Of a stretch of 64,000 bases of DNA, positions 7,671 through 64,000 are shown in pieces. The notes under the pieces are model-generated. The model was not told the DNA's origin and ran no database searches. It saw only the letters and a list, made by a program, of their open reading frames with translations. Source of the stretch: Asparagopsis taxiformis (Eukaryota > Rhodophyta > Florideophyceae > Bonnemaisoniales > Bonnemaisoniaceae); assembly GCA_030407315.1 (NCBI GenBank), contig JALQPE010001880.1, positions 31,106 through 95,105 on the forward strand. The letters run 5' to 3'. Position 1 is the first letter of the stretch. Every line of letters begins with the position of its first letter. The position numbers and the translations under genes are program-made.

Positions 7671-7799
7671 CGCCTGCACCCCCGACGTGCCCACTCCGGC
7701 GACATTCACAACACGCCTGCACCCCTGACGTGCCCACTCCGGCGACATCCACACCCAGCCTGCACCTCCGACGTGCCCACTCCGGCGACACCACCTACT
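7671..7799 (+). repeat. 43-bp tandem repeat (three units) in copia leader
   Basis: Three head-to-tail units begin at 7671, 7714 and 7757, each containing GACGTGCCCACTCCGGCGAC. They end just before the gag ATG at 7808. The unit is not a multiple of three, so it is an untranslated minisatellite, not a protein repeat. Confidence 0.85.
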
Positions 7800-7807
7800 C
7801 ATCCATA

Positions 7808-8544
7808 ATGGATAACAATCCCGCCCAGCCTGCCGTCCCTGCCCATACTTCGCCCCCTTCCATATCCCCTCTTCACTCAGTTGAAATCCCAACTTTGACC
7901 ACAGTCAATTTCATTGCATGGCGTATGAGCGTTGAGCATGTCGCCCGCACCCAGGACCTCATGCATTACCTTTACCAACCTATACCGCATTCCGAGTCGC
8001 AACAAGAAATTGATGCACACCTCATCCGTCATGCTCAAGCACAAGTTCTTATCATACCTTCTCTCTCAACGGAGATATTGTCCTACTTCACGGACATAGA
8101 GCTACAGGGTCCCCTACACGTTTGTACGACAAGATCCGTCTCAAGCTCACCTCCCCCAACCCAGCCCATACCCCAAGTCAGCTGCGTCGCAAAGCGCATC
8201 AAATCAAGTGGCAGCCTGGCACTACAGCAGTCGAATATGTTCAACAGCATACTGAACTGCGCCAACTCATGGTTAGGTCAAACTATCCAGATATATCAGA
8301 TGAACAAACTACAATTCGCTTCATCCTGGAAGGGCTTGAACATGACCCTTCTTGGATCGTCTTCTTACAGACCATCTCTATGCACAATGATCTCAACCCT
8401 AAACATCTACTTTCCTTGGATCAAGTAATTACTATGATCATCAAACAGGCTGACATTGCCCAACAAGCCTCGCCCGCTTCCCATACCTCTCCGGCGCCAC
8501 GAATTTTCACAAACCCCCCACCGCTCCCGCCGCTCCCCCGCTAG
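7808..8544 (+). pseudogene. Copia gag, frameshifted
   Basis: The ATG at 7808 opens a gag-like frame (SVEIPTLTTVNFIAWRMSVE, as in UBN2/Retrotran gag proteins). Around 8115 the homologous reading continues in another frame (LYDKIRLKLTSPNP, AVEYVQQHTELRQLM, FILEGLEHDPSW) up to a stop at 8542-8544. The pol frame that follows is back in the original frame, so two compensating single-base indels (near 8115 and in the C-rich run near 8535) would explain everything. The ancestral element probably had one gag-pol frame. As it stands gag is broken and the copy is unlikely to be autonomous. Confidence 0.8.
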
Positions 8545-29831: not shown

Positions 29832-30621
29832 GCTGCTTCCGTGAGATTTGTAATCACGGTTAGAGTTGTTTTTCTCTGGTTCCTTCTGGAGTTACTGTTA
29901 CTCCTTCGTGATCGGCTAGACGACTGGTGGTGTTTTTGGTTGGCGTTTGTTTCGGAATTCGAAATTCGTTCGCTCATTTCTTGTATGCTTTCTGCCTTCT
30001 TGGATGCATATTCCAGAAACTCCTTCCAATTCTCGCGCAGTTCTTCGTTGTATGTGAATGCGTTGGTCACGTATTCGCGCAGAGTCCGGGGGTGAAAGCG
30101 CTGAGTGATGAGTTTGATAGCCATTTCTGTGTTTTTTCACGAAAATCCTTATATCCTATCTCCTCCATTTTGTCTTCGAAGTCGGCAGCTAGTTGATACA
30201 CTCTGCATCCGGCATCATCAATTGTCGTGTCCATTTTTAGGCTTGATACTGCATGATTGATCTTCCTTGAGCAAATCTTCTCTTCGCTTCTTGGACCAGC
30301 AATCTTCTGTATGCACTGCTTAATATGATCCCCAGTGATTCTTCTGAGATCCACATTTGGTGCTATGTCGTCGAAGTATCCAAATCCGTGCATGGACTTG
30401 AGAAGTCTTGGACAGAGTGATAATCGCATGGAAACTGGTTGTATTGGTTGTCCATCTCTTTCTCTCAATGCGATTTCTAGTTCATATTGGTGCCTTTCCC
30501 TGAGAAATCTGACAGCGTTGGCTGGGTCGATTTTCTCTAGTTTTGGATGCGCAATGGGCTCAAATATTAGAGGAGCCCGGTTGTTTGTGGTTTTGTTCCT
30601 GCTTCTTGTAGCTTCAGCCAT
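29828..30621 (-). pseudogene. Gypsy gag, frameshifted
   Basis: The ATG at 30621 starts a gag-like frame (ANAVRFLRERHQYELEI, a capsid-like helical region) that ends at 30067. The continuing sequence is in another frame from about 30124 (QRFHPRTLREYVTNAFTYNE, coiled and basic, ending SRSRRSNSNSRRNQRK) and stops at 29828, overlapping the pol ATG by ATGA. One indel near 30110 would join the two. The zinc knuckle is placed at the start of pol. This copy probably cannot make full-length Gag unless the junction is a programmed frameshift. Confidence 0.75.
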
Positions 30622-31422: not shown

Positions 31423-33275
31423 ATCGGACGGAAGCAAGTCCCAAATCAAAATTGCACGGTACAGGTGAGGGAACAGATACAACCTCCCGCTGCACACCGA
31501 ATACAGCGTCAGAGCTGGTGATTCAATTACAACAATGGACTGCACCGGACTGATAAAGTAGCGGCCGTCGCCACAAACTAGAATGAACAACGAGAAGAAT
31601 CATCAGACTCGAGGTTGCCATACAACAGAGGATGGGTGAAACCAGTATGATTTGTAGTTACGATCATAAGCTTAGAATCAGAGCCAATTACTAAGGCAAT
31701 TGAATCACTCTCTCAGATGAGATCAGAATAGACAAAAAGATGCCCTCCAAATGGCCTCACAGGGATTCGAACCCACGCACCCAAAGAGAGAATTCGAGAA
31801 TGGCAAAGTCTCATGCTACAGCCCTGGAACCAAGTACAATACAAACCTCAACCTCCATCGACATCGCTATCGAGAGCAATAAACAGCGTGCAGCGTTCAA
31901 TTCTTTCCCGTTCCTCTATTTAAACCAGAACGTCTAAAAACAACGCAGTTCAACCCCATAGCTTGGAAAGTGCGTGGCCAATTCAGGCAACAGCATTCAA
32001 TTCACAACGAAAGCTGCAAGACGCAAAAGCACAATAAGCTTCAGGACGTTTCGCAGTTGGAAACGCAGCACGCCTAACAACGTCAGTTCGATACCCCTGT
32101 ACCAACGAGCTTCATCGTCACTTGTGGCGTGCATTTCATCCGCTCATCCCCGCCTCCCGCCCTCAGCGCTCGCATTGTCGCCGCATAAACCTCTCCACAC
32201 CGCACGCGCCACGACACGGGCATGCGCTGCGGTGACACCAGGGCACGAGTCTGGTTGAAGCGCCACCGAGGCTGAATGTTAGCGAGGGCCTGTTGGCGGA
32301 TGGCGGGGTGCCGCAAATTCACTACATACACATCGTGTGTTATAAACTGCGTGTAAGACGCCCGATCCGGCTCCGGCGCGCCGTTCCGCATCGATTCGTC
32401 CGGACGCCTCGCACTGTTGTGGGAGCACAGCCTGGAGCGATTTAGTCAGACATGTGCGGTGCATGCGTCCATGCTGTGGTGAATGTGCGGGGAGCTGTGT
32501 GTGGACACCGGGACGAGATTGGAACGGGATGGAACAAATTGTAACGAGGGTGGATAATGCGCAGATATCCTTAGCGATCGAGTGCGGATGACCTCTTGAT
32601 TTAGGTGAAGGACGATGCGGTCCACGATACTGGGAGGGCGGTCGATTTGAATTGACGTGTGCGGATGGGAGGAAGGTCCTGTATGGGATGGATCCCCGCC
32701 CTGCATTGAACAGATAGACACTTTGCCTTAAACTGGTTCTTTGCCGAAGTGCTTCGCATCTAGTGTTTTGGGTGGAGAATTGAGAACGACACGTGCCGTT
32801 GGGCATTTCTGCGGACAACTACTCGACGCCAATTTCAATTTCGAAAAAACATCTGGGCCAATTACAATGCCCAACATGGCCCAAAAGCCCGGCATTGAAA
32901 TGGTGAGTTTCGACAACCCTGAACGGTATCAACACATGTTTGCTCGACGCTATCTGTCTGACATCCTGCCTACCGGGTGTTTCAAAATTTCTCGACAGTT
33001 TCTAGTGTCCTACATGTTCGCAAAATTCTGCAATTCAAATCAGTGTTGCTGGAAAAGCAATTCGCATCACTCGACCAATAAGTTGTACTCTTCTCGTCAT
33101 TGTACGTGAGACGTCGCGACGATGAACGTCGAATCAGGCCACGTTTATCGTGGCAACTCGCCTCAGTTGCTTTCAGCAACATTTAAGGGAACATGAACGG
33201 TAGTTGGGGTGCTCTCCATATTTGTCCATGATACAGAGTTAGACTTAGCACCTATTGTTTACACGTCTATCACCA
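31423..33275. other. 3' flank of LPMO copy A and 5' flank of copy B
   Basis: 31423-31800 matches the sequence after copy B (34149-34390) with much divergence. 32290-33275 matches the 5' flank of copy A. No gene is supported. A T-arm-like stretch (GGGTTCGAATCCC, minus strand near 31765) is not part of a foldable tRNA. Confidence 0.55.
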
Positions 33276-34148
33276 ATGAGTAGAATACCATTTATAATAT
33301 CCCTATCATTGCTCTGCGCACTGTGGGACGCAGTCGCATCACATGGCTTTCTTTCAGATCCTCCACAGAGAGGAAATTTAGTCGGTAGATGGTCTGATAT
33401 TGTAGTGGACCGTAACGCACCAGCAGACCCGTATCTACACTTTCCGGCGGGACGGAAGGGGGGAGGACCTGGCCAAAACGTAGGGTCTAAATCTCAAGAA
33501 AAGGCTGGAAACTTCAATTGGACTCCATACGACCCATTCTCTCCCTCTTTCGTATGGCGAGCCGGCGTGTGCGGGGATGAAAAAGGGAAGAAGCAGGACC
33601 ATTTGCGTGGTGGAATCTACTATTACAATGCTACTATTGTACGTACATACCAGAAGGACAGTGTGATTGGCATTGCAGTCAAAGTCATAGCTGAACACCG
33701 AGGAATTCTGGAGTTTTTTCTGTGCGATGTTGATAAATGTGGAGGTGAGATATCAGAGCAATGTTTCCAGAAGGGGCATTGTTTCAAATTAAAGCGTGCA
33801 CAATCACGGTGTGACAGTCGGACTGAAAGGAGGTGTGGGCCGATTGATGAGAAGTATCCGGGCAGATGGTACTTTCCATGCGGGCCACATCCGGAGAAAA
33901 CGATGAAATTTAACACGTCGGAGATTCGATATGAATTGCCTAAAGGGCTGAGTTGTGCGCATTGTGTGTTGCAGTGGTATTGGGCTTCAGCACAAGAGTG
34001 TAGGGTAGAAGGAATATTGGACTATTTGAATATGGTTGCTGATCGAGGTCAATGGAGGCGGTGTACAACTCTTAAAAGAAGGAATGCATGTGGAGGTCGT
34101 TTTTTTCCTCAAGAGTATTATCAATGTGCTGATGTAAGAATTGTGTGA
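33276..34148 (+). CDS. AA15-type lytic polysaccharide monooxygenase, copy B (intact)
   Basis: 290 aa from the ATG at 33276; an upstream TTG is in frame but the ATG directly precedes the signal peptide (1-22). Cleavage after VAS leaves His 23 as residue 1 (HGFLSDPPQRG), the first ligand of the copper histidine brace of LPMOs. The second His is 141 in AEHRGILEFFLC, matching the NHxG block of AA15 enzymes. The C-terminus HCVLQWYWAS ... CGGRFFPQEYYQCADVRI matches the AA15 ending, with a Tyr (281 or 282) at the axial copper position. AA15 enzymes oxidatively cleave chitin and/or cellulose outside the cell. Substrate here is unknown. The gene is Cys-rich as expected and no CBM is attached. It is the functional member of a duplicated pair. 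Confidence 0.85.
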   Translation: MSRIPFIISLSLLCALWDAVASHGFLSDPPQRGNLVGRWSDIVVDRNAPADPYLHFPAGRKGGGPGQNVGSKSQEKAGNFNWTPYDPFSPSFVWRAGVCGDEKGKKQDHLRGGIYYYNATIVRTYQKDSVIGIAVKVIAEHRGILEFFLCDVDKCGGEISEQCFQKGHCFKLKRAQSRCDSRTERRCGPIDEKYPGRWYFPCGPHPEKTMKFNTSEIRYELPKGLSCAHCVLQWYWASAQECRVEGILDYLNMVADRGQWRRCTTLKRRNACGGRFFPQEYYQCADVRIV

Positions 34149-49222: not shown

Positions 49223-51362
49223 TGTAATCGTGGGTAACACTAATGTGTATGATAACCCAGTTTGATTAGACCCTTACTCTCAATGATCTACTAACTTGGC
49301 CTTCATAATACGGTTCTCTGTCCGTATGTGTCCTATTATTTGTGCACACACTGCACCGGGTGCACTACCCTTACTATTCGTGGGTGGCAAGTGCTATTCG
49401 TATTTCAATTCTTGATTGTTATGCCAGCTCATAACGCGCAAAGCGTGTTACACTGCCCCAATGGTCTGGAACGTTTTTGTTCAGATCATTAGTTTCTCAT
49501 ACCCACTTGGACACTCGCTTCCTTGACCAATTTGGTCTGTTTTTGCGACATCAAGAACTGTTGCACCATATCCGGTATGTCCTCGTGTAGCTTTAGCAAT
49601 GATTCCCATGTATAATCCGCGACATCTGGTAAACCTGCCATTCTACCTGAATGAATTTGGAAGTTCCTATAGTGCGCAATGCGTGTAGCTTTTCTGCCTC
49701 CTCATATGTAGCTTCCGAGTGTTCTGCGTGACGTAGTAGCGCATCTGAAGCCTCCATATCTTCTGGGCTAGACATATATATCTTCATTCGCGTTGCGTGC
49801 ACTCGTTCTGTTTTTCCATCCACCAGACCAGTAACTTCATATACCAACGGATGCAGTATTCTCGTCACTCGCCTTGGACCGGTACATTTGAAAAGAAGCT
49901 TGTGTCCTTTCTCTTGCGGTCTTTTGACGAGAACAAAATCTCCTAGAGTGAAACTGGGAGTGACAACCTTGGTGTGCTTGTTATGAGCATGTATCTGCCT
50001 TGCTCTTTCGGCGCTTACTCTGTCTGATACATTTTTGTGCACATTTTCGATAGCTTTTGCAGTTCATCCAGATTTGTGATTGTGCCAATTTTGTTGCGAG
50101 TTAAATCTCCTCCATGTATGAATCGGAGATCGCCTTGTAGAGAGCTGTCACGTGTGGGCCTGATGCCTGTCATTACTTGTAGTGGGGTACGACATGTATT
50201 GTCTTCGTTCATCCCCAACCTCGCCACCGGTGATTCGTTAAGCACAACTTGTACCATATTGATAATTTTTGGCCAGTCCTGTGGCGCTAGTTTCAGCTCG
50301 GATAACAATGCGCGTATTGTCCTCAACACCTCGCGACAGCATCTTTCGACAGTGCCGTTTGCCCACGGACTATAAGCGGTGATAAATTGATGTTTGATAC
50401 CGCAATCTTCTGCAATGTTTTTCATTACTGCGTTCTTAAAATGACTTCCTTGATCCGATACCCACACTCTCATTTTGGAGAAAGTAGTGATCCAGCGAAT
50501 AATTTCGGTGGCCACTACTTCAGCGTTGGCGTTTCTAGCGGGACACAGCCAAGTGTACGATGACAAGTCGTCTTTGATGATTAATGCATACTTTAAGCCT
50601 TCCATTCCATGTCCAAGGTACAGGAAGTCGAAGTGTACTACTTCATTCGGCTTCTGGGCTGAAATTGTACCTGATAAGGGACGAGGAACTCTCTCCCCAG
50701 AACGAGAGGTCAGGCAGTGGATGCAAGCTCTGACGAATTCCTTGCAATCGTCTTCCAGCGTCTTCCAATAGTACTGCTCTTTGAGAATACATTTGGTGGC
50801 GTGCGATCCTCTGTGTCCGCTTCTTCCACAATGAGCAATCACCGGAATTTGGGATTGTAACTCCAGATCTTGTTCAGGGGTCCAAACCTTTTCATTCATC
50901 GTCCATACTGCCCCTGGGATTTTTTTGCGTTCTTTGGTTCTGATTGTTCGTGATGTGTTTGGGAGTTACGCACCGCATCGATTGTCGGCCATACAAAATC
51001 GTCATCGAAAGGTGATCGGACAATGTCGTTGGGTGTCTCTATATTTCGTACCCTGCGTATTGCAGAGCGCTTCCCTCTATAGCCTAGCCAGCGTGTCATT
51101 ATATCTGGCATGACATTATGCCAGAAATATGCTCAATAGTGTAAGCAAACTTGGAGAGATGCAATGCCCATCTCTGCACTTTGGAGACTACGTGTCGTCC
51201 CAGTGCTGGCTCCAATGATAGCGGATTGAACACGAACAGCAGGTTCTTGTGATCAGTGTACACGTGTATAGGTCTCTCTGTGAGAAGTAGGTAGTCCAGT
51301 TTCTTAAAAACTTGCAGTATTGCAAATGCTTCTTTTTCGAAGGTGCGTCTGTGTTCTCGGAA
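49223..51362 (-). mobile_element. Second Ty3/gypsy chromodomain element, degenerate and 5'-truncated
   Basis: The 3' LTR end at 49452 (GCGTGTTACA) is fixed by the adjacent polypurine tract, which resembles that of the first gypsy element (CCAGACCATTGGGGCAG against CCAGAGCATGGGGCGG, minus strand). The LTR start at 49223 (TGTAA) is a guess. Pol pieces read upward on the minus strand: RNase H C-terminal half (about 51360-51099), frame change, integrase (50899-50015, VWVSDQGSHFKN, NGTVERCCREVL), frame change, C-terminal integrase plus a chromodomain that is itself frameshifted near 49640. RT, protease, gag and 5' LTR are missing: homology stops abruptly at about 51360, where unrelated sequence with GGACGTCC motifs begins. 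Confidence 0.82.
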
Positions 51363-51620
51363 ATGGACGCGGACGTCCACAACCTCTAGTACACCTAGTA
51401 TTACTAGGCGGACGTCCATGTTCTCCAGTATTTTTGGATGTCCGCCTAGAACCGGACGTCCATGCGGTCTAGTACGTCTAGTATTACTAGGGCGACATTC
51501 ATTGTTTCTAGTACCACGGATGTCCCCCTCGGGATGGACTTCCGCCATGTCTATGTCCACCTAGGACGGGCGCCGGTTCAGAAATTCAAAAATTTCGACC
51601 CCAGAAATTTCTGCCGCCGT
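51363..51620. repeat. GGACGTCC-rich palindromic segment at the left junction
   Basis: Repeated GGACGTCCA/GGATGTCC motifs (near 51372, 51411, 51447, 51463) alternate with CCTAGTATTACTAGG, a 15-bp perfect odd palindrome, which recurs in part near 51480. The same GGACATCCACCGGACGTCC motif closes every unit of the arrays further right. This suggests the segment is the left end of the region that holds genes A and B. Confidence 0.55.
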
Positions 51621-52978
51621 GCTCGACATGGATGTCCGCATCCATCACGGCGACCACTCTATTTTTCCTTGTCGGTCGACTCCAATTTCGTCTTTAATTT
51701 TTTCATCCTCTCGCTCACACCCCCTTCCTGTTGGTGCTCACCTCCCCCGTACTGTACCTCAAACACCCCAATACCACTCTAGCACGCATTTTCAGATACC
51801 TATCCCCGCTTCCACGGTGCACACCTCCATTCCATACCTACTTTTCTGCTCTACCGTACAGATTTCGTATAACCAGTCCTCATACTACCTCAGAATAGGG
51901 CAAAACACCCCCTATCTCCTCGACCATGCTCTCCCCCATCACCTTTGAAACGTATTGTTCTTCAGTACCCTCTCTCCTCTACCCTCAACCCCTCTCCTTC
52001 GCCCTCTACACAAACTTCCCCTGCAGCTTACTCTTCCAAAACCTCTCACTCCCCATCCCGTACCCGACCTGCTCCACCCCTCCCTCCCTCAGCTGCTCCA
52101 TGCCCCCACGCCATCCGCATCTTCGATACCGTATACACCACCACCACCGGCCCACGCTCCCGCACTGCGGGGTGGCTCCCCCGCCGTATCCCCAGAAACC
52201 TCCCCGCTCTGAAACACATATCAACCCCCCACTTCGCACCCTTCCTCCCACTCCCCTCCCTCCCCAAATACAATAACCCCCTTCTTCTCCATCACATCCC
52301 CACTCACCACAGCCAGAACAGACGCCACCCCCTCCCCTTCTTTCTCCTCACTTTCCTAAAAACCCCTCCTCTCGGCGCCTTCAACCGCACCCTCCTACGG
52401 TCCCACCTAAACACCTCCTCCGCCCTCACTACCCCAACACCCCGCAGCGTCTCCCCAATCCCCATAATATGCTTGTCGGCACTCCTCTCCGAATCACAAT
52501 CCATTCTAAACCCGCACTCCGTACATTTCCACCTCCCCCTGTACCATCCCAAGATTCCATCCCCCCACAGAACACATCCTCATACCACAGAAGAATTTTC
52601 TTCCTCTCATACCTCATCCTTAAAACCTCCATCAGCTCCATGTAAATTTCGATGAAAATATTTTCTCTACTATGCAATCTCAAACATGTATGAGCCTATG
52701 CCTTTCCGCTTTGTCAACCCTGAATATTGGTACTCATGTATTCATAAAATAGGGCCACCCACATCCCTATCCCGTTCTGCAAGCTTTACAAACCACTAGA
52801 CGCATACTCCACAACTATACAACAAACACTACTCGCTATTTCAGACGACGCGGTACACAAGTAGCGTAGTGTCAACCTTCCGTGACGCCTTCCCTGATGC
52901 GTACAAGTGGGAAACACGTCTAGACGTATATCAGAACTGAGTGCGGGAATTTTCGGCACAGGAGATGCTGGGCCACCA
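51621..52978. other. Strand-asymmetric C/T-rich segment, no supported gene
   Basis: Between about 51900 and 52640 the plus strand is very poor in G and rich in C. Long frames here (for example 51945-52655 plus) are Pro/Ser/His/Leu-rich and look like composition artefacts. A minus-strand frame (52304-52552) has CTECGFRMD, which is too little to call a zinc finger. Confidence 0.5.
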
Positions 52979-54410
52979 AATTGATTTTTCGGAAATTTTA
53001 GAATTTCTGGGCTGGCCAGCAATGCAATCGAGCTGGACATCCACCGGACGTCCATTTCAGGTTGGTCGCGAGAGGGTGGGGCGGGACCATGATGAAACAA
53101 GGACCAAGACCTTTCCCTGACGTGTTGAGCCTGAAATCGACCCTTCGTGAGACGCGATTTTGGCTTACAGTTGGTGCTAATAGAAGCCAGTGATAGCCCC
53201 GATCGGGGCGGCAGCCGGCTCCGGCTTACAGTTGGTGCTTACAGACGCCAGTGATAGCCCCCGATCGGGGCCGGCGGTCGGTTCCTGGGGCCGTTGTGGC
53301 CAAATTAGACACCCTGATTTGAATTAAAATTTGGGCTATTCTCAAAAACATGCACATGTGAACATGTTTTTGAGATGGGGGTGTGCCGTACGGCACAATC
53401 GACCGCCCAAATCGTTGATTTTTGCAAGATTTTTTGTGCCCGAAATTTTAGAATTTCTGGGCTGGCCAGCAGTGCATCTGAGCTGGACATCCACCGGACG
53501 TCCATTTCAGGTTGGTCGTGTGCTGCCTACATCCACGCATTGCAGAAACTAAGCCAGCGGGTTCACTACTAATACAAAGTACACGGAATATGAGTAACGT
53601 GATAGGTGAGTAGTGTTTGTGTTGAGGGAGTAAGGCGGGACCATTATGAAACACGGAAGAAGATGCGTACCTAGCATAACTTAGGCTTGAAGCCTGGAAT
53701 CGACCCATCTTTCGGCGCCATTTAGCCTCACAGTTAGTGCTTACAGAAGCCAGTGATGACCCCGCTCGGGGCGGCGGTCGGTTCCTGGGGCCGTTGTGGC
53801 CAAATTAGACACCCTGATTTGAATTAAAATTTGGGCTATTCTCAAAAACATGCACATGTGAACATGTTTTTGAGATGGGGGTGTGCCGTACGGCACAATC
53901 GACCGCCCAAATCGATGTTTTTTGCAATATTTTTCTGTGCCCGAAATTTTAGAATTTCTGGGCTGGCCAGCAATGCAATCGAGCTGGACATCCACCGGAC
54001 GTCCATTTCAGGTTGGTCGTGAGAGAGCGGGGCGGGACCATGATGGAACAAGGACCAAGACCTGTCCCTGGCGTATTGAGCCTGAAATTGACCCTTTGTC
54101 AGACGCCATTTAGCCTTACAGTTGGTGCTTACAGAAGCCAGTGATAGCCCCGATCGGGGCCGGTGGCCGGTGCCTGGGGCCGTTGTGGCCAAATTAGACA
54201 CCCTGATTTGAATTAAAATTTGGGCTATTCTCAAAAACATGCACATGTGAACATGTTTTTGAGATGGGGGTGTGCCGTACGGCACAATCGACCGCCCAAA
54301 TCGATGTTTTTTGCAATATTTTTTTGTGCCCGAAATTGTAGAATTTCTGGGCCGGCCAGGAATGCATCTGAGTTGGACATCCACCGGACGTCCATTTCAG
54401 GTGATCGTGT
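52979..54410 (+). repeat. Left iteron-like array: one partial and three full units
   Basis: The partial unit starts at 52979; full units start (GACACCCTGATTTG) at 53308, 53808 and 54197. Each full unit has a 34-bp palindrome (arms CTCAAAAACATG / CATGTTTTTGAG around CACATGTGAA) at 53341, 53841 and 54230, the 16-bp perfect palindrome TGTGCCGTACGGCACA at 53382, 53882 and 54271, and ends with GGACATCCACCGGACGTCC. Spacers between units are of two kinds, ~300 and ~190 bp, giving periods of 500 and 389 bp. Some spacers contain CCCCGATCGGGG. It lies just beyond the 3' end of gene A. Confidence 0.9.
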
Positions 54411-54676
54411 ATCGTGCACGTCCAGCCATTACCAGAAGCAAGTTGGCGATGAAGCACGTATAAACCCAATTGTTCTGCTATTTCTAGCATAGACCATCGA
54501 GTCTAGAGATGTGAGGGAATCGTCCTGGAATCATGCTCCAACCCACTAGGGAATGGACAATCTAGTTTGAAAGCATGGAACGGAAGTGCATTATAGTAGG
54601 TTCATAGATTGAAAGTGATAAAGGAGATGATTATATTCTCGATAATTGTTTGCTAAAGTAGTTGTTGTTAAGATAT

Positions 54677-57600
54677 CTAGCCGTCGGAAAACTGTTCTTC
54701 CTCTTCGTCCTCACTATGATAGTGAACTAGATATCCAGGTTGTCCCGGCAGAAGAGGCACTACCGGGGCCACACTCGGTGTGTGCATTACATCCTTGCGA
54801 GGTTCTGTCGTCTTCATCCGCATCATTCGGAGCTGCCCTGTCTTCGGCCTACCATCTTTCTTGACCGGGATGGGAACAACTGTCTTGTGGCGAACATTGA
54901 CAGGTGCCGGTTGACTTTGCCTTGCAGACCGGCGCGGAGCATTGGCGATGACTTCTTCTTCGAATCCCAACCGCCTGATGAAACCAAACGAAACATTGTC
55001 GGGAATCGGATACGACGCATTCCTGAAATACGTGTGATACCTCGTTGTCGTGTGTGACACAACTCTGTCGACATGCCCTGCCCCGGCATGTTGTACATGG
55101 CCGTGACCGATGAAGACTGAACGTGGCGGAACGATTACCTTCTTCAGCTTCATCGTCTTGGCGTACATATCTAATTCCAGCGCTTTGGAAAAGACGTACT
55201 TGTGGGACCCTGGACACACCCAGATAGGGAATGGGTCATCTCCGTTGGCAATAACAAAGTAACCCGGAAGTTGATCTTTGCGGTCGCGAGGAGGAACAGG
55301 GAAATCATTGTGTGGGACCTGCCGAGGACACCCCTTTCCCGTTATCAAAAACCGTCCCCCAGATGCCGGCATGACAAGTTTTTCTCCCGGTAAACCGCAC
55401 TCCTCCAGCCCTGTCAGCCGGACAAGGATTCCCAACCACACATCCAGCAGGGCTCGTCGCGTCACAAACTTGAACCGGTCGATATGCGTCTCATCGTTCT
55501 CGGCATAGTCAACCAGGCAGTGGCGCGTAGACGTGAAGCGAGCCCTCCCCTCATTCCGGTTCTTCTCGTCTGTTTCATCGTCCCCCGTATTGACAATGGG
55601 ACTCCACAGCTGCCGGTTCCCAGGGTCCTTGTGCACCTGCTCCCCCTCCCACGTTCCCAAAAAGTACCGAAACAATTCCTGGTTAGGAATTTCTTCCATG
55701 AGACCCAAGTCAAATGGGAACTTGTCCGACGCATCTAGGTAGCTTACATCCGCGAAATTGTGCATCACCGTATACCCTCGCTCGTTGATTTCCGTTCGGC
55801 AATTGTGGAAGTACGCCATACCAGTGCCGGCCTCATACGAATCCTTCCAGCTTGTAGACATTCGCGCAACCTGAGCGAAGTCCAGCCTCGAGGGTAGAAA
55901 CGTCGATGTAGGCTCACACATCGCCTTGGCAGCCATCTTCCACGCTGCGAAGAACATCGGATAGACGTGATCGATTTCGAATAGCACACGAGCCCGATGT
56001 TCTTCCGGAATATGCAGCCCCTCAAACACAGGGTCCATCGCCACTTGCTTCAAATACCTCACCTCTCTGCCCTCCTCATCGATTTCCACACTCTCCAATA
56101 ACAACCTGAGCTCAATCGGGGGCAGACAGCCAACCCTCACCGATGCGATGACATCCGCGGGACGCTGCGCCAGATGATGCCCTTCGGCTCGGTCTTCGAA
56201 ATCGTCAGGAAGAGACGGCATACGGTCGTCGAAGAGGAGGTCGTCTTCAGAAGGAGAGTCACGAACGATGTAACCGTCTTCATCGACTTCCACTCCTTCC
56301 GGAACAGTGAATGTAATTGTCACTTCGCGGACCCCCTTGCTTTCGACTTGGCCCTCGTCTGCACCCTGTTTGTCTTCCTCGTCCGAAGCGGTATGGACAG
56401 ATTCTTGGTTGGAGGGAGTCGCACCAGCACGTTGGTTATCTTGGGGGACAATCTCAACGGCAGAATCGGGGGAACGGGCGGAGTCTTCGTCAACCTCATC
56501 ACCGGAAGCAGTGGCTTGTTGTTGATCGGTGGGTTTATCAACAACGGCCTGCTCTTCTTCCCCGGCGGATTGTTGTACCACAACCGGCTCTTCTTCCTCG
56601 AGGCGTGTGCTCCCCGTCGAGCGAAGTCGCTGTGAACGGCGGCGGATGCCATGCGAAGCAGGCTCATGTTCGACATTCCGCTGCTTCTTGTGAGTGAGTC
56701 TCACATTGGCAGCAGAAGGGCGGCGTTTGCGTCGAGCCTTAGTCTTCTTCTTCAATGTCGGATTGAAAAACTCTTTCAAGTTCGTTTCCAAATCCTGTAA
56801 ACGCGTGGTTCTCCGTCGCATTCGAACCTCACTGCTCCGGTCGTCCCCTCTATACATTGCAATGGCATTGGTGAGATGCCATTGCAACTCCTTCGGCTGC
56901 TTAACCGACCCAATTGCCATCTCTGTGCTCAGAAATGACTTGCGCATAATACTCTTTGGGCGCCCAAACGCAGCGTACAGAGAATTTGCTATTGCAGTCA
57001 CGCGACGGACGTATGTATAAAAGTCGTTCACGTCAAAGCGTCCATCCGGACGTCCGCCATGAGCAGGGTTCAAGTACTCCGAAAGACCACGCAAGACGAA
57101 GACAAAGTTTTCTTCCAGCAACTCGCGCACTATCTTGTGGTCCAGGTGCGTTATCCCAATCTCGTTGCGGCGCTCGGAATTGTTCAGCTCACGCAACACG
57201 TCGTCGAGAACAGGATGCTTCAGCGTTGCTATAGCCAAACGCGTCCACCGCCGAGCCGTGTTCGTCGAATTCATCATCCCCATGAACTGCGCCTCGAACA
57301 ATGTTCGGATGACATCAGACTCACGCAAGTCGCCAGCGTTTTCCACGTTGTTTGCAACAGCAATCGTACGGATGAACTGCTGGATGGACGACAAGATTCG
57401 AACCAGGGAGCGCTCCGTCAGTTGCGTCCCAGTCGTATGGTTCGACTCTGCACTCTTGTGGATGATCTCATGAGGCTGGAGATCACTGTCGTCCTTGCGG
57501 CGAAGGTAGTACACATCCAGAGGCTGAGTAACCCAGCGCAAGCGGTTTGCCTCCTGTGGCAGCTTGGTTCTGTGCATACGGGTGAGGCGCGTGAAGTCAT

Positions 57601-58609
57601 CCGCAATGCTATGCATAGCATTGAGACGATGCAGTCCGTCGATCACGGTCACGTTCGCATTGGCATGGAATTTGCCATTCTGGAACAGACGCGTGTCGGC
57701 GGACAAATGCGTGTTCTGCGACCTCAGCACCGTCACAGTGATACGCGAAGAGCTCACATACCCCACCGCCAACATATTGTTGCGCAGGTCCTCCACGTGG
57801 TCTTCTTTGACATCGCGAAGGGTCACGGCCGGTTCCACTAGCTGCCTCACCAACACAGTCGCTCCTTCTCCGACGTAATCCGACGTCACAAACTTGGGCA
57901 CCATAATTTGCGTCCCCTGCTGCTCACGAATGCTTTCCGCCACCTCCGGTTCGTCGTCCACCTCGGTTACGTCCTGCGTAGTAGCTTCGGTGACGTTGGA
58001 GCGAGCAGGGTGCTTCGTGCCTCCACTGGAGGCTCTGGCAGAGCGAGCAGGGCGCTTCGTGCCTCCCGAAACCGGGACGGAGCGTGCTGGATGCTTCGTA
58101 CCCCCCGAACCAGTGATTTCGCCTGCTGGACCGGTACTGGGCATCCGTCCCGAGCTGGCCTGGTTCGTCGCTGCGTTGAAGTTTGACGCTGCAGCAGGGG
58201 TACGAATGTCGCTAGAGCCATCCTCCGCAGCGGGGCGCATCATCCGAGTATCCCAAGGGTAAAACGCCGCGGCGTATGCTCCACCCATCGTCTCCGGCGG
58301 TCCCTCGGCGCCATCAAACATGTACGGGAACGGGAGGTCCTTGAACTTGTCCTTAGTCGCAATGTTGCGCACGACGATATAGTCGGCCTCGTCGGTTTCC
58401 GGCAGCTTGTGGTTGTGCAGCGTGCGCGGAAGGCCAACATCGCCACCAGCAGTGCTCACCGAAGCCGTCCCAATATGCACAGCCGCACCGTCCACGTCCG
58501 CAAACAAGTCGACATCGACGCCGCGCTTGAGTCCGCGCGACTCCGCTGACGCGCTCACTTGATCGCCGCAAACCGTTGAAAACAAACTGCTGAAATGCGT
58601 ATCCGCCAT
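54677..58609 (-). CDS. Gene A: ParB-like domain plus 2OG-Fe(II) dioxygenase-like domain
   Basis: 1,310 aa from the ATG at 58609 (ACCATGG context; the frame extends upstream but without features). Residues 1-230 are polar with three GGTK(H/R)PARS repeats (169-204). About 250-340 is ParB-like: VRQLVEPAVTL, DHVEDLRNNMLAVG, then VIDGLHRLNAM (322-332), the box typical of ParB/sulfiredoxin-like folds. A helical region, a basic stretch (KKKTKARRKRR) and a long acidic/Ser segment follow. Residues about 1040-1220 resemble phytanoyl-CoA-dioxygenase-type 2OG oxygenases: HND (1100-1102), PGYFVIANGDDPFPIWVCPG, VPPRSVFIGHG, VQHAGAGH (His 1174) and a later Arg (RYHTYF). The fold suggests oxidation of a nucleic acid, protein or other substrate with iron and 2-oxoglutarate; the substrate is unknown. 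It lies between two near-identical repeat arrays and upstream of it lies gene B on the same strand. Confidence 0.78.
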   Translation of the reverse strand: MADTHFSSLFSTVCGDQVSASAESRGLKRGVDVDLFADVDGAAVHIGTASVSTAGGDVGLPRTLHNHKLPETDEADYIVVRNIATKDKFKDLPFPYMFDGAEGPPETMGGAYAAAFYPWDTRMMRPAAEDGSSDIRTPAAASNFNAATNQASSGRMPSTGPAGEITGSGGTKHPARSVPVSGGTKRPARSARASSGGTKHPARSNVTEATTQDVTEVDDEPEVAESIREQQGTQIMVPKFVTSDYVGEGATVLVRQLVEPAVTLRDVKEDHVEDLRNNMLAVGYVSSSRITVTVLRSQNTHLSADTRLFQNGKFHANANVTVIDGLHRLNAMHSIADDFTRLTRMHRTKLPQEANRLRWVTQPLDVYYLRRKDDSDLQPHEIIHKSAESNHTTGTQLTERSLVRILSSIQQFIRTIAVANNVENAGDLRESDVIRTLFEAQFMGMMNSTNTARRWTRLAIATLKHPVLDDVLRELNNSERRNEIGITHLDHKIVRELLEENFVFVLRGLSEYLNPAHGGRPDGRFDVNDFYTYVRRVTAIANSLYAAFGRPKSIMRKSFLSTEMAIGSVKQPKELQWHLTNAIAMYRGDDRSSEVRMRRRTTRLQDLETNLKEFFNPTLKKKTKARRKRRPSAANVRLTHKKQRNVEHEPASHGIRRRSQRLRSTGSTRLEEEEPVVVQQSAGEEEQAVVDKPTDQQQATASGDEVDEDSARSPDSAVEIVPQDNQRAGATPSNQESVHTASDEEDKQGADEGQVESKGVREVTITFTVPEGVEVDEDGYIVRDSPSEDDLLFDDRMPSLPDDFEDRAEGHHLAQRPADVIASVRVGCLPPIELRLLLESVEIDEEGREVRYLKQVAMDPVFEGLHIPEEHRARVLFEIDHVYPMFFAAWKMAAKAMCEPTSTFLPSRLDFAQVARMSTSWKDSYEAGTGMAYFHNCRTEINERGYTVMHNFADVSYLDASDKFPFDLGLMEEIPNQELFRYFLGTWEGEQVHKDPGNRQLWSPIVNTGDDETDEKNRNEGRARFTSTRHCLVDYAENDETHIDRFKFVTRRALLDVWLGILVRLTGLEECGLPGEKLVMPASGGRFLITGKGCPRQVPHNDFPVPPRDRKDQLPGYFVIANGDDPFPIWVCPGSHKYVFSKALELDMYAKTMKLKKVIVPPRSVFIGHGHVQHAGAGHVDRVVSHTTTRYHTYFRNASYPIPDNVSFGFIRRLGFEEEVIANAPRRSARQSQPAPVNVRHKTVVPIPVKKDGRPKTGQLRMMRMKTTEPRKDVMHTPSVAPVVPLLPGQPGYLVHYHSEDEEEEQFSDG

Positions 58610-58952
58610 GGTTGTTGAGTTGGAAAGGAAAAGAGATGGTTGACGTTGACGTATTCGAGTGATGTGGATGGTATGTTTCACGTTAAGTTGAAGAATGGTC
58701 GTGAACGCCAATCGCTGGAAATAATAACACAATACAACCGAAATTTTGTTAGGTACACACCTATCGTGACCGCTGGAATGCAAGACAGGCAATCGAGATG
58801 TGAGTGTCCGTTCAGAACGGGCCCGAGTCGGGCTCTCGAAACCTGACGAGGTGGCGTGAAGCAGGCAGTGTCCTTGATGTGTAATGTGTTAAAATTACAG
58901 CTGTCAAGCTAGGCGGCTTTTGGGGCGGCTGCGAGCACCCCTTTATCCGGGG
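58610..58952. promoter_or_regulatory. Upstream region of gene A
   Basis: About 340 bp between the gene A start and the first unit of the right array. I see no TATA box. Its position implies that the array flanks, and may be part of, the promoter of gene A. Confidence 0.4.
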
Positions 58953-60055
58953 AACACCCTGATTTGAGTTAAAATTTGGGCTATTCTCAAAAACATGCAC
59001 ATGTGAACATGTTTTTGAGATGGGGGTGTGCCGTACGGCACAATCGACCCGCCCAAATCGTTGATTTTTGCAAGATTTTTTGTGCCCGAAATTTTAGAAT
59101 TTCTGGGCTGGCCAGCAGTGCATCTGAGATGGACATCCACCGGACGTCCATTTCAGGTTGGTCGTGTGCTGCCTACATCCACGCATTGCAGCAACTAAGC
59201 AGGCGGGTTCACTACTAATATAAAGTGCACGGAATATGAGTAACGTGATGGGTGAGTAGTGTTTCTGTTGAGGGAGTAAGGCGGGACCATGATGAAACAC
59301 GGAAGAAGATTTCTCCCTAGCATAACTTAGGCTTGAAGCCTGCAATCGGCCCATCTTCCGGCGCCATTTAGCCTCACAGTTAGTGCTTACAGAAGCCAGT
59401 GATGACCCCGCTCGGGGCGGCGGCCGGTTCCTGGGGCCGTTGTGGCCAAATTAGACACCCTGATTTGAATTAAAATTTGGGCTATTCTCAAAAACATGCA
59501 CATGTGAACATGTTTTTGAAATGGGGGTGTGCCGTACGGCACAAACGACCCGCTGAAATCGTTGATTTTTTACAATTTTTTTGTGCCCGAAATTTTAGAA
59601 TTTCCGGGCTGGCCAGCAGTGCAATCGAGCTGGACATCCACCGGACGTGCATTTCAGGTTGGTCGTGAGAGAGTGGGGTGGGACCATGATGGAACAAGGA
59701 CCAAGACCTGTCCCTGGCGTATTGAGCCTGAAATTGACCCTTTGTCAGACGCCATTTAGCCTTACAGTTAGTGCTTACAGAAGCCAGTGACAACCCCACT
59801 CGGGGCGGCGGTCGGTTCCTGGGGCCGTTGTGGCCAAATTAGACACCCTGATTTGAATTAAAATTTGGGCTATTCTCAAAAACATGCACATGTGAACATG
59901 TTTTTGAGATGGGGGTGTGCCGTACGGCACAATCGACCCGCTGAAATCGATGTTTTTTGCAATATTTTTTCTGCCCTGAATTGTAGAATTTCTGGGCTGG
60001 ACAGCAATGCAACTGAGCTGGACATCCACCGGGCGTCCATTTCAACTTGGTCTTG
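58953..60055 (+). repeat. Right iteron-like array: three full units
   Basis: Units start at about 58953, 59454 and 59842 (periods 501 and 388). The 34-bp palindromes start at 58986, 59487 (one outer mismatch) and 59875; the 16-bp palindromes at 59027, 59528 and 59916 are all perfect. The spacers match those of the left array in order (long, then short), so the left and right arrays are direct repeats of about 1.1 kb on either side of gene A. The last unit has small changes (TCTGCCCTGAATTGTAG) shared with the inverted copy at 63775. Confidence 0.9.
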
Positions 60056-60272
60056 TATTTTGCATCTGCACGCATAACAGCAACCAAGCAGTCAGGTTCA
60101 CTGCTCGGACGAAGTGCACCTAGAGTGTGAACGATTGGTTTTTGACAGGCGAGTACTGCCGAATAGGTTTCACCCTGGACTAATGGTGGCTGGACATTCT
60201 GCATTATATGATATACTTCAACTCTGGAACGTAGCTTTATTTGTAGTCGAAATGAAAACATCTTTCGTGACC

Positions 60273-61013
60273 CTAATTCCATGCTCTAAACGCTGTCCCA
60301 TAATGAACGTAGAGCTCCTGCCCCGGACGGATATCGCGGATTGCACGTACTACAATGATCTTCGGATTTTCTAGGTCCTTCGCCTTGAGCTTCTTCCCCG
60401 TCGAACCGCTGCTGTAGTTCTCGACAAACTCGACGTTGGCCATCCGCCTGGTGTCTTCCGCCGGAGTGTCCTCACCTCGCAAATACCGCGGGTCGTTGAT
60501 GAACTGCGCCGAACAGAACGGAGCCGGAACAATCCAAATTGGATGCTCGATGTTTTCGTCGTCCTCCGCTGTTGCATACAGCTTGATAGCATACATCAAG
60601 AATGTTTCCTTCGTTATCGCCATGTGACCCTCTCCGTACGCGAACCTCATCGACTCCTTGCTCATATCAGAGTACACAACAGTTCCGTAGTATGCACATA
60701 CTTCGTCACCAACATTAAATGTCTGTTCAGCGAAGAGCCCTCTTCCTGCATTTGGATGCTTAATCAGCGATGGTCGAACGCTCAATTTTTTCGCAACACA
60801 ATCGTGTGCCCGCATCACGCGAGGGTTTTCAGTTTGCAACCAGCGGCGCAGGGAAGGTGGCCAATAATGTACCGGTTTCTCCATGTGCTCGCGCGACGCA
60901 ATCGACTCTGGGCACAGCTGCCAGAGGTACTGCCGAATATATTTCGGGAACCTCTGGTACAGGGGAAGGCCAGGTGGGGGTTCGATGATCCTGCGTTCCC
61001 TCTGCGTACGCAT
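60273..61013 (-). CDS. Gene B, second frame: SET-domain lysine methyltransferase-like
   Basis: 246 aa from an ATG at 61013, overlapping the end of the DNA methyltransferase frame by 199 nt in another phase. Residues about 77-241 form a SET domain: GRGLFAEQTFNVGDEV (90-105), YYG (108-110), FINDPR (171-176) with NVEF (193-196) in place of the usual NHxCxPN block, and GQELYVHYG (231-239), the closing ELxxxYG motif. Residues 1-75 are a conserved-looking basic/aromatic linker (PKYIRQYLWQLCPES). SET proteins transfer methyl groups from SAM to lysine, usually on histones. An in-frame stop lies just upstream, so it is either translated separately, reached by frameshift, or was once fused to the methyltransferase. 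Confidence 0.82.
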   Translation of the reverse strand: MRTQRERRIIEPPPGLPLYQRFPKYIRQYLWQLCPESIASREHMEKPVHYWPPSLRRWLQTENPRVMRAHDCVAKKLSVRPSLIKHPNAGRGLFAEQTFNVGDEVCAYYGTVVYSDMSKESMRFAYGEGHMAITKETFLMYAIKLYATAEDDENIEHPIWIVPAPFCSAQFINDPRYLRGEDTPAEDTRRMANVEFVENYSSGSTGKKLKAKDLENPKIIVVRAIRDIRPGQELYVHYGTAFRAWN

Positions 61014-63469
61014 CGTGACAGAGGGGACGCCAAGAACTTCTCAGCACTCTGTTTCGCTTCTGTCGTGACCCTCATGTCAGTGTTGTTTGAAAGAATTACA
61101 CGTGACATGACTGCACACAGCTTTGGAAGCGATCGTACCACACACAATTTGTCCATGTCACTGCCGACGAAAACACGGTGCTCAGGCAAGCTCATAGCTG
61201 CTTTTCCCGTTGCGAAAGTGCCAGAGAATGGATCGACAACAATATCACCAGGCTGTGAATGCTGGCTGATCAACTCCATCATGAGAGCGACGCTCTTCTG
61301 CTCTGCACGAACTCTGACCGTAGCACCGGTTGTGCTCCTTGTTCGCCACACCATCTCATTCGAATCGATGGCGGGCATATTGATGGTGACGTTGCACCAC
61401 GCCGGGTACGTGCCGTCCATGTATCCGTGGTTCCTATAGGCCACCATCTCGCTTCCGGTCTTGAACGGAACACCTCGCTTCCAGAAGTGGATAGCGACCT
61501 CTGCCATGTTCATGCGTTGGTACCTCTTCCGCCCCGGCATTTGATAGAGGTGCCCAGGTAGTCGGACAAACAACAGAGGTACCTCGTCAACGAAGAAAAC
61601 TGAATTCCGAACGACGTCCTCCTCCTCCTCGTCCTCCTCCTCATCCGCACTTTCTTCGCCACTGTGCTGCGATGCTTCGGAGTCCGAATTCATGGACGTA
61701 ACCTCTTCTTCATCCGACCCGTCATCACTGGCAGCAGTATCGGTTGGGCCTTCTGACTGCGGTCCTTTGTACGTTTCCAAGTAATGGAACCATTCGTAGA
61801 ACTGCAAAACCGAGCAGAACACGATGCCGTGGCCACCGGGGCGCAACAGCTCGTCAAACACTTCGATGCTAGCCTGCATATCTTCTGCAGTTAGCCTGTC
61901 GTACGAAGAGTTGGAATCGTTCCTCTTACGACGAACATTGTAGGGCGGATCAGTCAGAATGAGCTGAACGTTGCCCGTGATGGGCACGTGTTCTCGGCTC
62001 TCGTCGGCACTGACCAAATCTTCGAAAGGGACGTCGTACACCCGGCAATACTGACTCATTTTCGAAAGAAAGTCCTTTGCGAGAGCCTGCCCTTCACTTT
62101 CCTGCTCTTCTGTCGCATGGGGTGACGGTGACGGGGGAGACGGCCCTTGGGCAGTAAGACTGGTCCTCCCAGGTCCAAGTTGAAGCCTGGTTGTGTGTCT
62201 TGTCGACGGAACCAAACCTCTCCCTCCTGTGTTGCGACGAGTGGGAGTGTCATCAACCGGCTTGGGGACCTTTTCTGCGTCCGCGGCTTGTGGTGCCGGG
62301 CGGAGGACAGCCATAACGTCTTCGTCGAGGGTGTCAAAATACGCTGGCAGCTTGTCCGGATTTCCGCTTGAGAAGTATATTTCCAGTGCCCCCCAGCGGT
62401 CGGACTCCGGCCAGGTGTACAGGTCCGGGTTGACGATAAGAAACTGCAACCGGTCGAAGAACTTCCTCACAAGGTCCCTAAATGCACTGTGCTGCGCACT
62501 GGTTCTTGTCTCTACTTTTCCACCATATCCATCAGGATGAGATAGGGGAGCTTTGTTGTGGTAGAGATCTAGCTTCTGCTCCATCGGTGCGAATAGACCT
62601 TCATCGAGCACGTCAAACCAATGCTCACTGCTGTCGAAAATGATGTACGGCGCCATCAACTCTTCGAAGCTGGAAAACTTTGCGGCGTAGGCCACATCGG
62701 TCCAAGCATGGTATAAAACTTGAACCACGTAACAAGCTCGATTAGTGCTTTTCCGATGGGCTGGGACGCGTGCGGCTTCGTTCCCCTCTTCGGCCGCATC
62801 TCCTATTCGGCGACGCGGCAGGTTCTTGTTGTGATTTCGGATGATAGACAACGCTTGGAAATACATCAATACCTCGAACGTTTCCGGTGGAGCAAGAACG
62901 AAGGCGCTTGGTTCCCCGCGCTGCGGCGCCTGTAGTGGCGAAGGAAGCATGTTACATCCAATAAGGAAGGTCTGCGGCACGATCCCAGAAAGGATGCAGT
63001 GCTCAACCCATTGCCCGATACGCTCATCCTGTCTTGAAAACTCGGCAATGGGTAATGCCAGACGAACAATCTGCTTGGCTCGCTCAACGTTCATCTCTGC
63101 CATGACGATTTCGGCAACATCCGCCTCGACTCCAGCATTCTTCGAACGACCGCTGAAGGACATGCTGAGTCGACCTTGCAGCGCCACAAATTGTTCTTCC
63201 GTGCCCTGCGCAACCCAAGCGCCAAGGTCCGCGTATGTGAAACCTCCCGGCTTGTCCGTCAAGTCTGCGAAACTTGAGTGGGCGAATAAATCCAGCAAGA
63301 GGCGGAGGAAGTCTTTGCCAGCGAGAGTAGTTTCGCGGGCGGCGCGACCTACGTTTCGACGTGTACCCATGTCACTAGAATCCTCCCAAGGGCTAGCGGG
63401 TTCGCGCAGAATTGGCACGGTTGCGTCGTCAACGATCGGATTGCTGTTGCGCCTGCGCTTATTCGTCAT
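60815..63469 (-). CDS. Gene B: beta-class DNA amino-methyltransferase (DPPY)
   Basis: 884 aa from the ATG at 63469. The N-terminal ~460 residues are of unknown fold, followed by a Pro/Ser linker. The catalytic domain starts near 465: ILTDPPYNVRRKRN (DPPY 507-510, motif IV), an acidic insert (about 570-620), LPGHLYQMPGRKRYQ, RAEQKSVALMMELI (motif X), VVDPFSGTFATGKAA (744-758, motif I, FxGxG) and RVFVGSDMD (motif II). Motif IV before motif I is the beta arrangement of N6-adenine and N4-cytosine methyltransferases (N6_N4_Mtase), a bacterial and phage type that is rare in eukaryotes. DPPY favours adenine, but N4-cytosine is possible. Beyond about residue 810 the sequence in this frame loses character while the overlapping frame encodes a SET domain, suggesting a frameshifted fusion. 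Confidence 0.88.
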   Translation of the reverse strand: MTNKRRRNSNPIVDDATVPILREPASPWEDSSDMGTRRNVGRAARETTLAGKDFLRLLLDLFAHSSFADLTDKPGGFTYADLGAWVAQGTEEQFVALQGRLSMSFSGRSKNAGVEADVAEIVMAEMNVERAKQIVRLALPIAEFSRQDERIGQWVEHCILSGIVPQTFLIGCNMLPSPLQAPQRGEPSAFVLAPPETFEVLMYFQALSIIRNHNKNLPRRRIGDAAEEGNEAARVPAHRKSTNRACYVVQVLYHAWTDVAYAAKFSSFEELMAPYIIFDSSEHWFDVLDEGLFAPMEQKLDLYHNKAPLSHPDGYGGKVETRTSAQHSAFRDLVRKFFDRLQFLIVNPDLYTWPESDRWGALEIYFSSGNPDKLPAYFDTLDEDVMAVLRPAPQAADAEKVPKPVDDTPTRRNTGGRGLVPSTRHTTRLQLGPGRTSLTAQGPSPPSPSPHATEEQESEGQALAKDFLSKMSQYCRVYDVPFEDLVSADESREHVPITGNVQLILTDPPYNVRRKRNDSNSSYDRLTAEDMQASIEVFDELLRPGGHGIVFCSVLQFYEWFHYLETYKGPQSEGPTDTAASDDGSDEEEVTSMNSDSEASQHSGEESADEEEDEEEEDVVRNSVFFVDEVPLLFVRLPGHLYQMPGRKRYQRMNMAEVAIHFWKRGVPFKTGSEMVAYRNHGYMDGTYPAWCNVTINMPAIDSNEMVWRTRSTTGATVRVRAEQKSVALMMELISQHSQPGDIVVDPFSGTFATGKAAMSLPEHRVFVGSDMDKLCVVRSLPKLCAVMSRVILSNNTDMRVTTEAKQSAEKFLASPLSRCVRRGNAGSSNPHLAFPCTRGSRNIFGSTSGSCAQSRLRRASTWRNRYIIGHLPCAAGCKLKTLA

Positions 63470-63774
63470 AATGGAATGAGTGGAAAATTCGGTACAGGAT
63501 GGCGACCGCTCGGCGAGACAGTCAAATTTGACGACGTATCTCGTGACGTTTGCACTCTTTCGTGAGGAACACTGGTTGATATCGAACGGAACAGAGTATA
63601 CGGGTACACAGCACTGGAAAGGTCTTGAAACCCGTAACCGGTGTAGGTAATAAGTTGTGACGGATACGTGGTAGAGAAAAAATTTTAAAAAGATTGTGAT
63701 TCCTGCCTTTGAGTGTTGTACTGCAAGGCCGCCAGTCACATAGGTTGACACAGGTGCCTCACGCTTACCAGGTG

Positions 63775-63979
63775 AGCGACATCCGGACGGCCACTGGACG
63801 TGGGGATGTCCGACTCAGATGCATTGCTGGCCAGCCCAGAAATTCTACAATTTCGGGCAGAAAAAATATTGCAAAAAACATCGATTTCGGCGGTCGATTG
63901 TGCCGTACGGCACACCCCATCTCAAAAACATGTTCACATGTGCATGTTTTTGAGAATAGCCCAAATTTTAATTCAAAGC
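63775..63979 (-). repeat. Inverted iteron-like unit upstream of gene B
   Basis: A reverse-complement copy of the array unit: GGCCAGCCCAGAAATTC at 63831, 16-bp palindrome at 63899-63914, 34-bp palindrome at 63921-63954, ending AATTCAAA at 63979, where similarity stops. It lies about 300 bp upstream of the gene B ATG. With the last direct unit of the right array (59842) it brackets gene B as an inverted pair of about 200 bp. It may be the right end of the element. Confidence 0.88.
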
Positions 63980-64000
63980 AGGATGCAGATATTCGTCTTC

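Follow-up and report, generated by a model that had tools for sequence, protein, structure and literature searches.

The window analysed here, 64,000 nt long (G000:C1756:31106-95105), finishes at the end of its contig, and its right part joins two large genes to a set of palindrome-bearing repeats. The original prediction, made from the letters of the sequence, proposed that this block is a mobile or selfish unit able to mark both DNA and histones. What is this unit, where does it end, and what may its genes do to the DNA that carries them? We addressed these points in an assembly of 141 Mb and 3156 contigs. Since the genome searches list scored candidates, the copy numbers obtained are lower bounds.

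The element, its ends and its insertion sites

We demonstrated that a Plavaka-type DNA transposon begins at position 51346 of the window and that its left 12.7 kb are present, up to position 64000, where the contig end cuts it. The unit was delimited by comparison of the window with three other copies, two of them from contig C1778 and the third from contig C135. The C1778 copy that spans 23.7 kb is the sole one followed end to end, and its inverted termini, CGTCTGTGTT...AACACAGACG, lie at this distance from one another; in the C135 copy, 23.3 kb separate the two ends. Mapping the ends by means of other copies, as had been advised, was thus successful, and the predicted end at 63979 had to be given up: the contig stops there, and the element continues. 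A right boundary that we had placed earlier turned out to be the mere point at which two copies diverge, the true end being about 6 kb beyond. From left to right, the element has its left inverted end, a palindrome cluster, gene A, a second (middle) cluster, gene B, and a third cluster; gene C follows on the opposite strand, and then come the transposase, the 43-bp tandem array, and the right inverted end. The features are listed below, with positions in the window except for the last line. Rfam, searched with the window at gathering thresholds, gave no match.

51346-51378, plus strand: left terminal inverted repeat CGTCTGTGTTCTCGGAAATGGACGCGGACGTCC, which differs by two substitutions from the right end of the C1778 copy in inverted form
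51370-51513, plus strand: subterminal repeats GGACGTCC / CTAGTA motifs, two imperfect 61-bp units (repeat family D6)
52969-54400, plus strand: left cluster of palindrome modules, palindromes at 53340-53375, 53840-53875 and 54229-54264
54677-58609, minus strand: gene A, uninterrupted open frame of 1310 aa
58955-60119, plus strand: middle cluster, between genes A and B, palindromes at 58985-59020, 59486-59521 and 59874-59909
about 60273-63469, minus strand: gene B, amino-methyltransferase (PF01555) fused to SET (PF00856)
63804-63985, minus strand: inverted palindrome module at the start of the third cluster, near the contig end, palindrome at 63920-63955, inverted repeats I1-I15
L065:4140-5041: 43-bp tandem array, between the transposase and the right inverted end

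As had been seen from the letters, the block has an abrupt start, at 51346, within a gypsy element that it interrupts. Among the matches listed, 12 further gypsy copies are almost the same in sequence as the interrupted one, and all six that we examined are empty sites, uninterrupted across the insertion point and without the CG that starts the element. We had suspected this CG of being a target duplication, an idea dropped since the empty sites do not have it; for the same reason, the element start is read as CGTCTGTG. With this boundary, a 2-bp direct duplication (AA, TG, TT, GA and TA) flanks five of the 12 copies checked at both ends, which by chance, at 1 in 16 for each copy, has a binomial P of 5e-4. 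The other seven have no target duplication, and in two of them the terminal base is altered (on the left in C69, on the right in C135). The terminal pattern is found 1254 times in each direction in the genome, counts that are maybe not independent, against 0 for the reversed control; the first 100 places comprise 51 of the left type and 48 of the right type.

The transposase frame lies outside the window (L067:1338-4373, 1012 aa) and matches the Pfam Plavaka profile PF18759 with an E value of 1.6e-24 and 87.2 bits, for a cut-off of 26.3. Genome-wide, at least 123 Plavaka matches are listed, while none of the 14 controls (0/14) gave any. The transposase goes along with the cargo: among the 27 nearest SET-Plavaka pairs on common contigs, 18 are on the same strand and 9.19-9.69 kb apart, and four more are on opposite strands and 4.63 kb apart. 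One of these 4.63-kb pairs (contig C1954, L174) was examined and is an inversion whose breakpoint falls inside the palindrome modules; the remaining five pairs match neither spacing. The element is hence a DNA transposon of the Plavaka group, related to CACTA/EnSpm, with the transposase domain, terminal inverted repeats, and, in five of the 12 copies, a target duplication whose 2 bp are within the 2-3 bp range. It is the transposase that assigns it to Plavaka. Its termini, CGTCTGTG...CACAGACG, differ from the TGT..ACA of PlavakaA and the CATCA..TGATG of PlavakaB, as given in the part of PMC12730594 used here, and place it in neither of these published sub-lineages.

The family is young and present in high copy number. 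Gene A has at least 35 matches, the window copy included, all at 100% protein identity. When 20 copies were fetched, 19 were mutually identical over 3933 bp and the twentieth had one further synonymous difference, and a single synonymous site separates all 20 from the copy in the window. The family also has more diverged copies: for gene B, L010-L014 are 98.5-99.2% identical over the stretch compared. Polishing of the assembly might inflate these identities. The SET frame has at least 149 matches in the genome. A transposase, inverted ends, duplications in five of 12 copies, empty sites, and many near-identical copies strongly support the mobile, selfish unit that had been supposed. The alternative that the block consists of host genes, or is an assembly artefact, could appeal to the position of the window copy, which adjoins a contig end. 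However, the SET frame is found in at least 149 places, ten left flanks all differ, ten end pairs all differ, and the ends are defined. The flanks and the empty sites refute this alternative, which keeps practically no probability.

Palindromic modules and cargo genes

The palindrome is 36 bp long and imperfect, and the window holds the seven copies that had been counted in it, six direct and one inverted. The accompanying statement that the rest of the window is free of these repeats is right, the 51 kb of neighbouring DNA (1-51345) having no copy of the palindrome; in the genome, the repeat has at least 40 exact 151-bp copies. Ten palindromes are present in the complete copy and six in an 11.1-kb copy on contig C14, the one gene-less copy that we examined. 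The latter has the element ends; BLASTN found in it no stretch of more than 200 bases that matches the transposase or any of genes A, B, and C, and it has no open frame of more than 160 aa. It is a non-autonomous derivative of the transposon. Other end pairs 11-12 kb apart are also among the end-pattern matches listed.

The two large minus-strand genes of the original prediction were both found as open frames. In gene B, the bacterial-type DNA methyltransferase is recognised by PF01555 (N6_N4_Mtase, E 2.2e-15), with DPPY at residue 507 and DPFSGT at residue 746, and the SET domain, which is in a second frame in the window copy, is recognised by PF00856 (E 6.5e-8) over all 105 profile positions. 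Both domains were thus correctly called, and they belong to one protein: in the C1778 copy (L041), they form a single frame of 1065 aa, of which the window copy lacks one base near 61020, hence its frame break. Elsewhere in the genome, 109 of the 148 SET-containing frames transcribed, from the 149 listed, reach at least 1065 aa, which leaves room for both domains. Seven database proteins match gene B, one at 98% identity and six at 28-33%. Both Pfam domains are listed for four of these six distant relatives, and the seven-sequence alignment has SET sequence in all, shortened in P0005. The aligned sequences indicate that the fusion of an amino-methyltransferase to SET is retained over deep divergence in seven proteins. 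Motif IV is DPPY in gene B and P0003; the other distant relatives have DPPQ, YPPY, APPQ, DPPL, and DPPF. Judged by the usual form of this methyltransferase motif, four of the six distant relatives depart from it, so that catalysis has possibly been lost in several of them.

Among the variants of gene B shared between copies, 13 of 21 are synonymous against 25% expected (P 4e-4), a count biased in the SET half by the choice of copies, L010-L014 having been ranked by SET similarity. In the part that is free of this bias, 5 of 11 shared variants are synonymous (P 0.11); the private variants are synonymous in 9 of 27 cases. Taken together, these counts do no more than suggest that gene B is under purifying selection in this family.

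Gene A had been described as joining a ParB-like domain to a 2OG-Fe(II) oxygenase-like one. At the level of motifs, this stands: the ParB-like region has IDGLHR at residue 323, the 2OG-like region has H1100, D1102, H1174, and R1190, and IDG-HR and the four latter residues are identical in the sole relative found, P0001 (1377 aa; BLASTP identity of 27% with 29% of the query covered, global identity of 34%). Profile searches, on the contrary, did not confirm it. With E values allowed up to 10, no Pfam family, ParB_N (PF02195) and Tet_JBP included, matched gene A or either of its two pieces, and PHROG, NCBIfam, and PDB searches with gene A gave none either; a gene A profile had one PDB match, with an E value of 2.2, in the low-complexity middle. 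Two AlphaFold runs, one for residues 225-1240 and one for the 2OG piece from an alignment of two sequences, reached mean pLDDT values of 29.9 and 31.3, which are unusable. In a profile-profile comparison, for which the P0001 row was taken from a gapped alignment and realigned, the ParB piece was not significantly similar to six phage ParBs (P 0.19), and another stretch of gene A did better by chance (P 0.02). Judged by its conserved motifs, gene A may carry the two domains. Gene C is a coiled coil on the strand opposite to genes A and B. It has 761 aa in the near-identical P0009, besides which no relative was found, and its frame is broken in two in the C1778 copy; a PDB search with it gave no match.

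Phages and prokaryotes were also considered as a source. Phage records gave nothing for gene B at E up to 1e-5, the search of prokaryote genomes for the fusion returned 56 pattern stretches and no relative, and the 78 loci matched in viral contigs are all confined to residues 497-813, the general methyltransferase region. With gene A, phage tblastn gave no match to the 2OG piece at E up to 1 and a single 37-residue match to the ParB piece (E 0.5), and viral contigs gave none. These searches therefore lend no support to the idea that the whole unit came from prokaryotes or phages.

It could be argued that these genes are passengers, kept by chance during the recent burst and without any role in transposition. 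Selection on gene B is indeed not demonstrated in its unbiased part (5/11, P 0.11), and the catalytic motif departs from its usual form among the relatives of gene B. Yet the two-domain fusion is retained over deep divergence in seven proteins, and gene A is 34% identical to P0001 globally, though BLASTP covers only 29% of it; we regard a passenger cargo as very improbable.

Host context and proposed role of the cargo

Our best explanation, to which we give a probability of about one half, is that of a young transposon, in an alga with phycobilisomes that is probably a red one, carrying a private chromatin-marking kit that activates its own copies. The Plavaka transposase would mobilise the unit between its inverted ends. 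Gene A would be recruited by its ParB-like part to the palindromic modules of the element, the methyltransferase-SET protein would put an amino-methyl base mark (6mA or 4mC) and a histone-lysine mark on element DNA, and the 2OG-like part of gene A would take off or modify one of these marks. The copies would in this way be kept expressed, and the element proteins would recognise their own copies, including the shortened gene-less ones. We infer the binding by the ParB-like part, the oxygenase, the substrates, and also that the marks activate, this last point from the recent burst and from the association of 6mA with permissive chromatin, as presented in the part of PMC12695648 used here. As to the functions foreseen in the original prediction, a putative writer of DNA and histone marks is supported at the level of domains, with the reserve that motif IV is unusual in four of six distant relatives, and the oxidation of a mark and ParB recognition are suggested by motifs, to which Pfam, PDB, and the two AlphaFold runs added nothing.

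The same two writers could act in the opposite direction. The element might place repressive DNA and histone marks on itself and so limit its copy number and the damage to its host, and the profile-supported domains of the cargo, MTase and SET only, are both writers. Its recent spread to at least 149 near-identical places nevertheless fits effective self-silencing poorly, and we hold this unlikely. Another use of the base mark would be to license transposition. Bacterial transposons are controlled by Dam, and by analogy amino-methylation could flag the ends or the replication state for the transposase, while a ParB-palindrome system would pair or partition the copies. The presence of a bacterial-type amino-methyltransferase and a transposase in one unit, and the retention of palindromes in the gene-less copy examined, speak for it; but there is no predicted target site, the SET domain is left unexplained, and the ParB assignment is weak, so that licensing is likewise an unlikely reading.

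The anti-silencing could also be TET-like, the 2OG part oxidising host 5-methylcytosine on the element and the other genes being accessory. It has a close precedent in the Plavaka elements with TET/JBP genes described in the consulted part of PMC12730594. However, C5-cytosine methyltransferase (PF00145) had no match in the 141-Mb assembly, which is possibly incomplete, when the same search was positive in 10 of 14 control genomes, and gene A and its pieces matched neither Tet_JBP nor any other Pfam family. The missing C5 methyltransferase match makes the removal of host 5mC unlikely and a mark borne by the element therefore more plausible; the TET-like reading appears quite improbable to us. 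A stronger form of the preferred chromatin-marking reading would be a closed private epigenetic code, in which the writer would join a base mark of bacterial type with a histone mark, and a reader/eraser with sequence specificity would target the palindromes of the element, in a host with no detectable C5-cytosine methyltransferase. We advance it tentatively, as a possibility with the odds against it. If true, the element would mark its own DNA independently of the host.

Gene B is not the only amino-methyltransferase of its kind in this genome. PF01555 has at least 150 matches, which fall into several classes by score; the largest class (79 rows at 65.6 bits, 37 of them in frames of exactly 1186 aa) is distinct from gene B, and there is therefore more than one high-copy amino-methyltransferase family. 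No constant spacing was seen between the other methyltransferase families and Plavaka in a comparison of 45 of 150 MTase rows with 25 of 123 Plavaka rows, hand-picked and with one dummy entry. On the rows compared, these families are untied to the Plavaka transposase, and such genes may thus spread otherwise too.

Related elements and significance

The original prediction knew of no described system with this set of genes. For the exact set, this agrees with the literature searched, mostly outside subscription journals and Repbase, in which we found no description of a transposon with amino-methyltransferase-SET or ParB cargo; but DNA transposons carrying dioxygenase or SET genes have already been described (PMC12730594, in part), and the interesting part here is the combination of the cargo. 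According to the sections of Kojima 2025 (PMC12730594) that we used, TET/JBP dioxygenases are present in eleven lineages of fungal DNA transposons, Plavaka included. The fungal TET/JBP Plavaka elements have in common with ours the Plavaka transposase, inverted ends, a 2-bp target duplication, and an epigenetic cargo enzyme, and escape from silencing is proposed for them as it is here. They differ in that the present element has an amino-methyltransferase-SET fusion and a ParB/2OG-like protein, no TET/JBP match, and an algal host. The same sections cite SET genes in the HarbingerS and MuDR families of Phytophthora, which are likewise DNA transposons with a SET-domain gene, but their transposases belong to other groups, and these sections say nothing of a fusion with a DNA methyltransferase.

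Giant Plavaka repeats are known from Amoebidium (Sarre et al. 2024, PMC11244446, in part), where the cargo consists, unlike here, of tandem gene clusters, many for tyrosine recombinases. In the Arabidopsis VANDAL/VANC system (Hosaka et al. 2017, PMC5735166, in part), a protein coded by the element targets its own repeated non-coding motifs, a step that would be the same here. VANC21 binds YAGTATTAY, which is unlike our palindromes. A bacterial-type amino-methyl mark in a eukaryote is exemplified by the 4mC writer of bdelloid rotifers, which in the part of PMC8885841 used here is not given as transposon cargo. Single epigenetic enzymes on transposons are thus known; a unit that joins an amino-methyltransferase-SET protein and an oxygenase that may bind palindromes would amount to a system for marking loci, ready for use. 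As this is a recent family of many copies, with one natural gene-less form or more, native long reads from this species can test directly whether a mobile element imposes a base modification of its own on a eukaryotic genome.

Concerning the host, the assembly has 13 matches to phycobilisome linker domains (PF00427), two of which are on contigs that also bear element ends (C38) or repeats (C340).

Relatives of gene B and other methyltransferases

In the alignment of gene B, the transposon-borne amino-methyltransferase–SET fusion, with its six distant relatives (A2), we observed that motif IV is not DPPY in five of them, P0004 to P0008, which among them carry DPPQ, YPPY, APPQ, DPPL and DPPF. 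DPPF is a usual variant of this methyltransferase motif. Because motif IV departs from DPPY, these sequences suggest that some relatives among P0004–P0008 may have lost catalysis although the fusion is retained.

A genome-wide PF01555 search also revealed amino-methyltransferase frames of several classes distinct from gene B (for instance, C116:39516-40187, C2279:19831-20469 and C609:24681-25331).

Amino-methyltransferase classes among the 150 matches listed
65.6 bits: 79 matches, 37 of them in 1186-aa frames
64.2 bits: 12 matches, 8 of them in 943-aa frames
73.3 bits: 6 matches, 2 of them in 1106-aa frames

Profile searching of the whole 141-Mb assembly for the C5-cytosine methyltransferase domain (PF00145) returned no match at E ≤ 0.001, an absence that would be surprising were 5mC used by the alga.

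Rearranged and gene-less transposon copies

In one copy (L174, C1954:10400-15300), the transposase half is flipped relative to gene B, and the breakpoint lies within the palindrome modules. SET–Plavaka pairs on opposite strands with 4.63 kb spacing occur four times among the matches listed, L174 being the one of the four that was read. Another copy, of 11 kb (L088-L089, C14:6155-17359), is devoid of genes, and its palindrome clusters form a large inverted repeat.

The transposon left end contains two matches to YAGTATTAY (window 51396 and 51479), which one study gives as the motif of VANC21, an Arabidopsis anti-silencing protein (PMC5735166); one match is found in window 1-51345. The two at the left end are probably a coincidence.

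Other features of the window

3733-12001: two copia-type frames (RVT_2)
25932-29891: gypsy element whose chromodomain match is weak, falling short of Pfam's cut-off
33249-34145: lytic polysaccharide mono-oxygenase-like frame (LPMO_10, E 7.9e-11)
50018-51345: gypsy element broken by the transposon

The LPMO_10-like frame is possibly a host gene.
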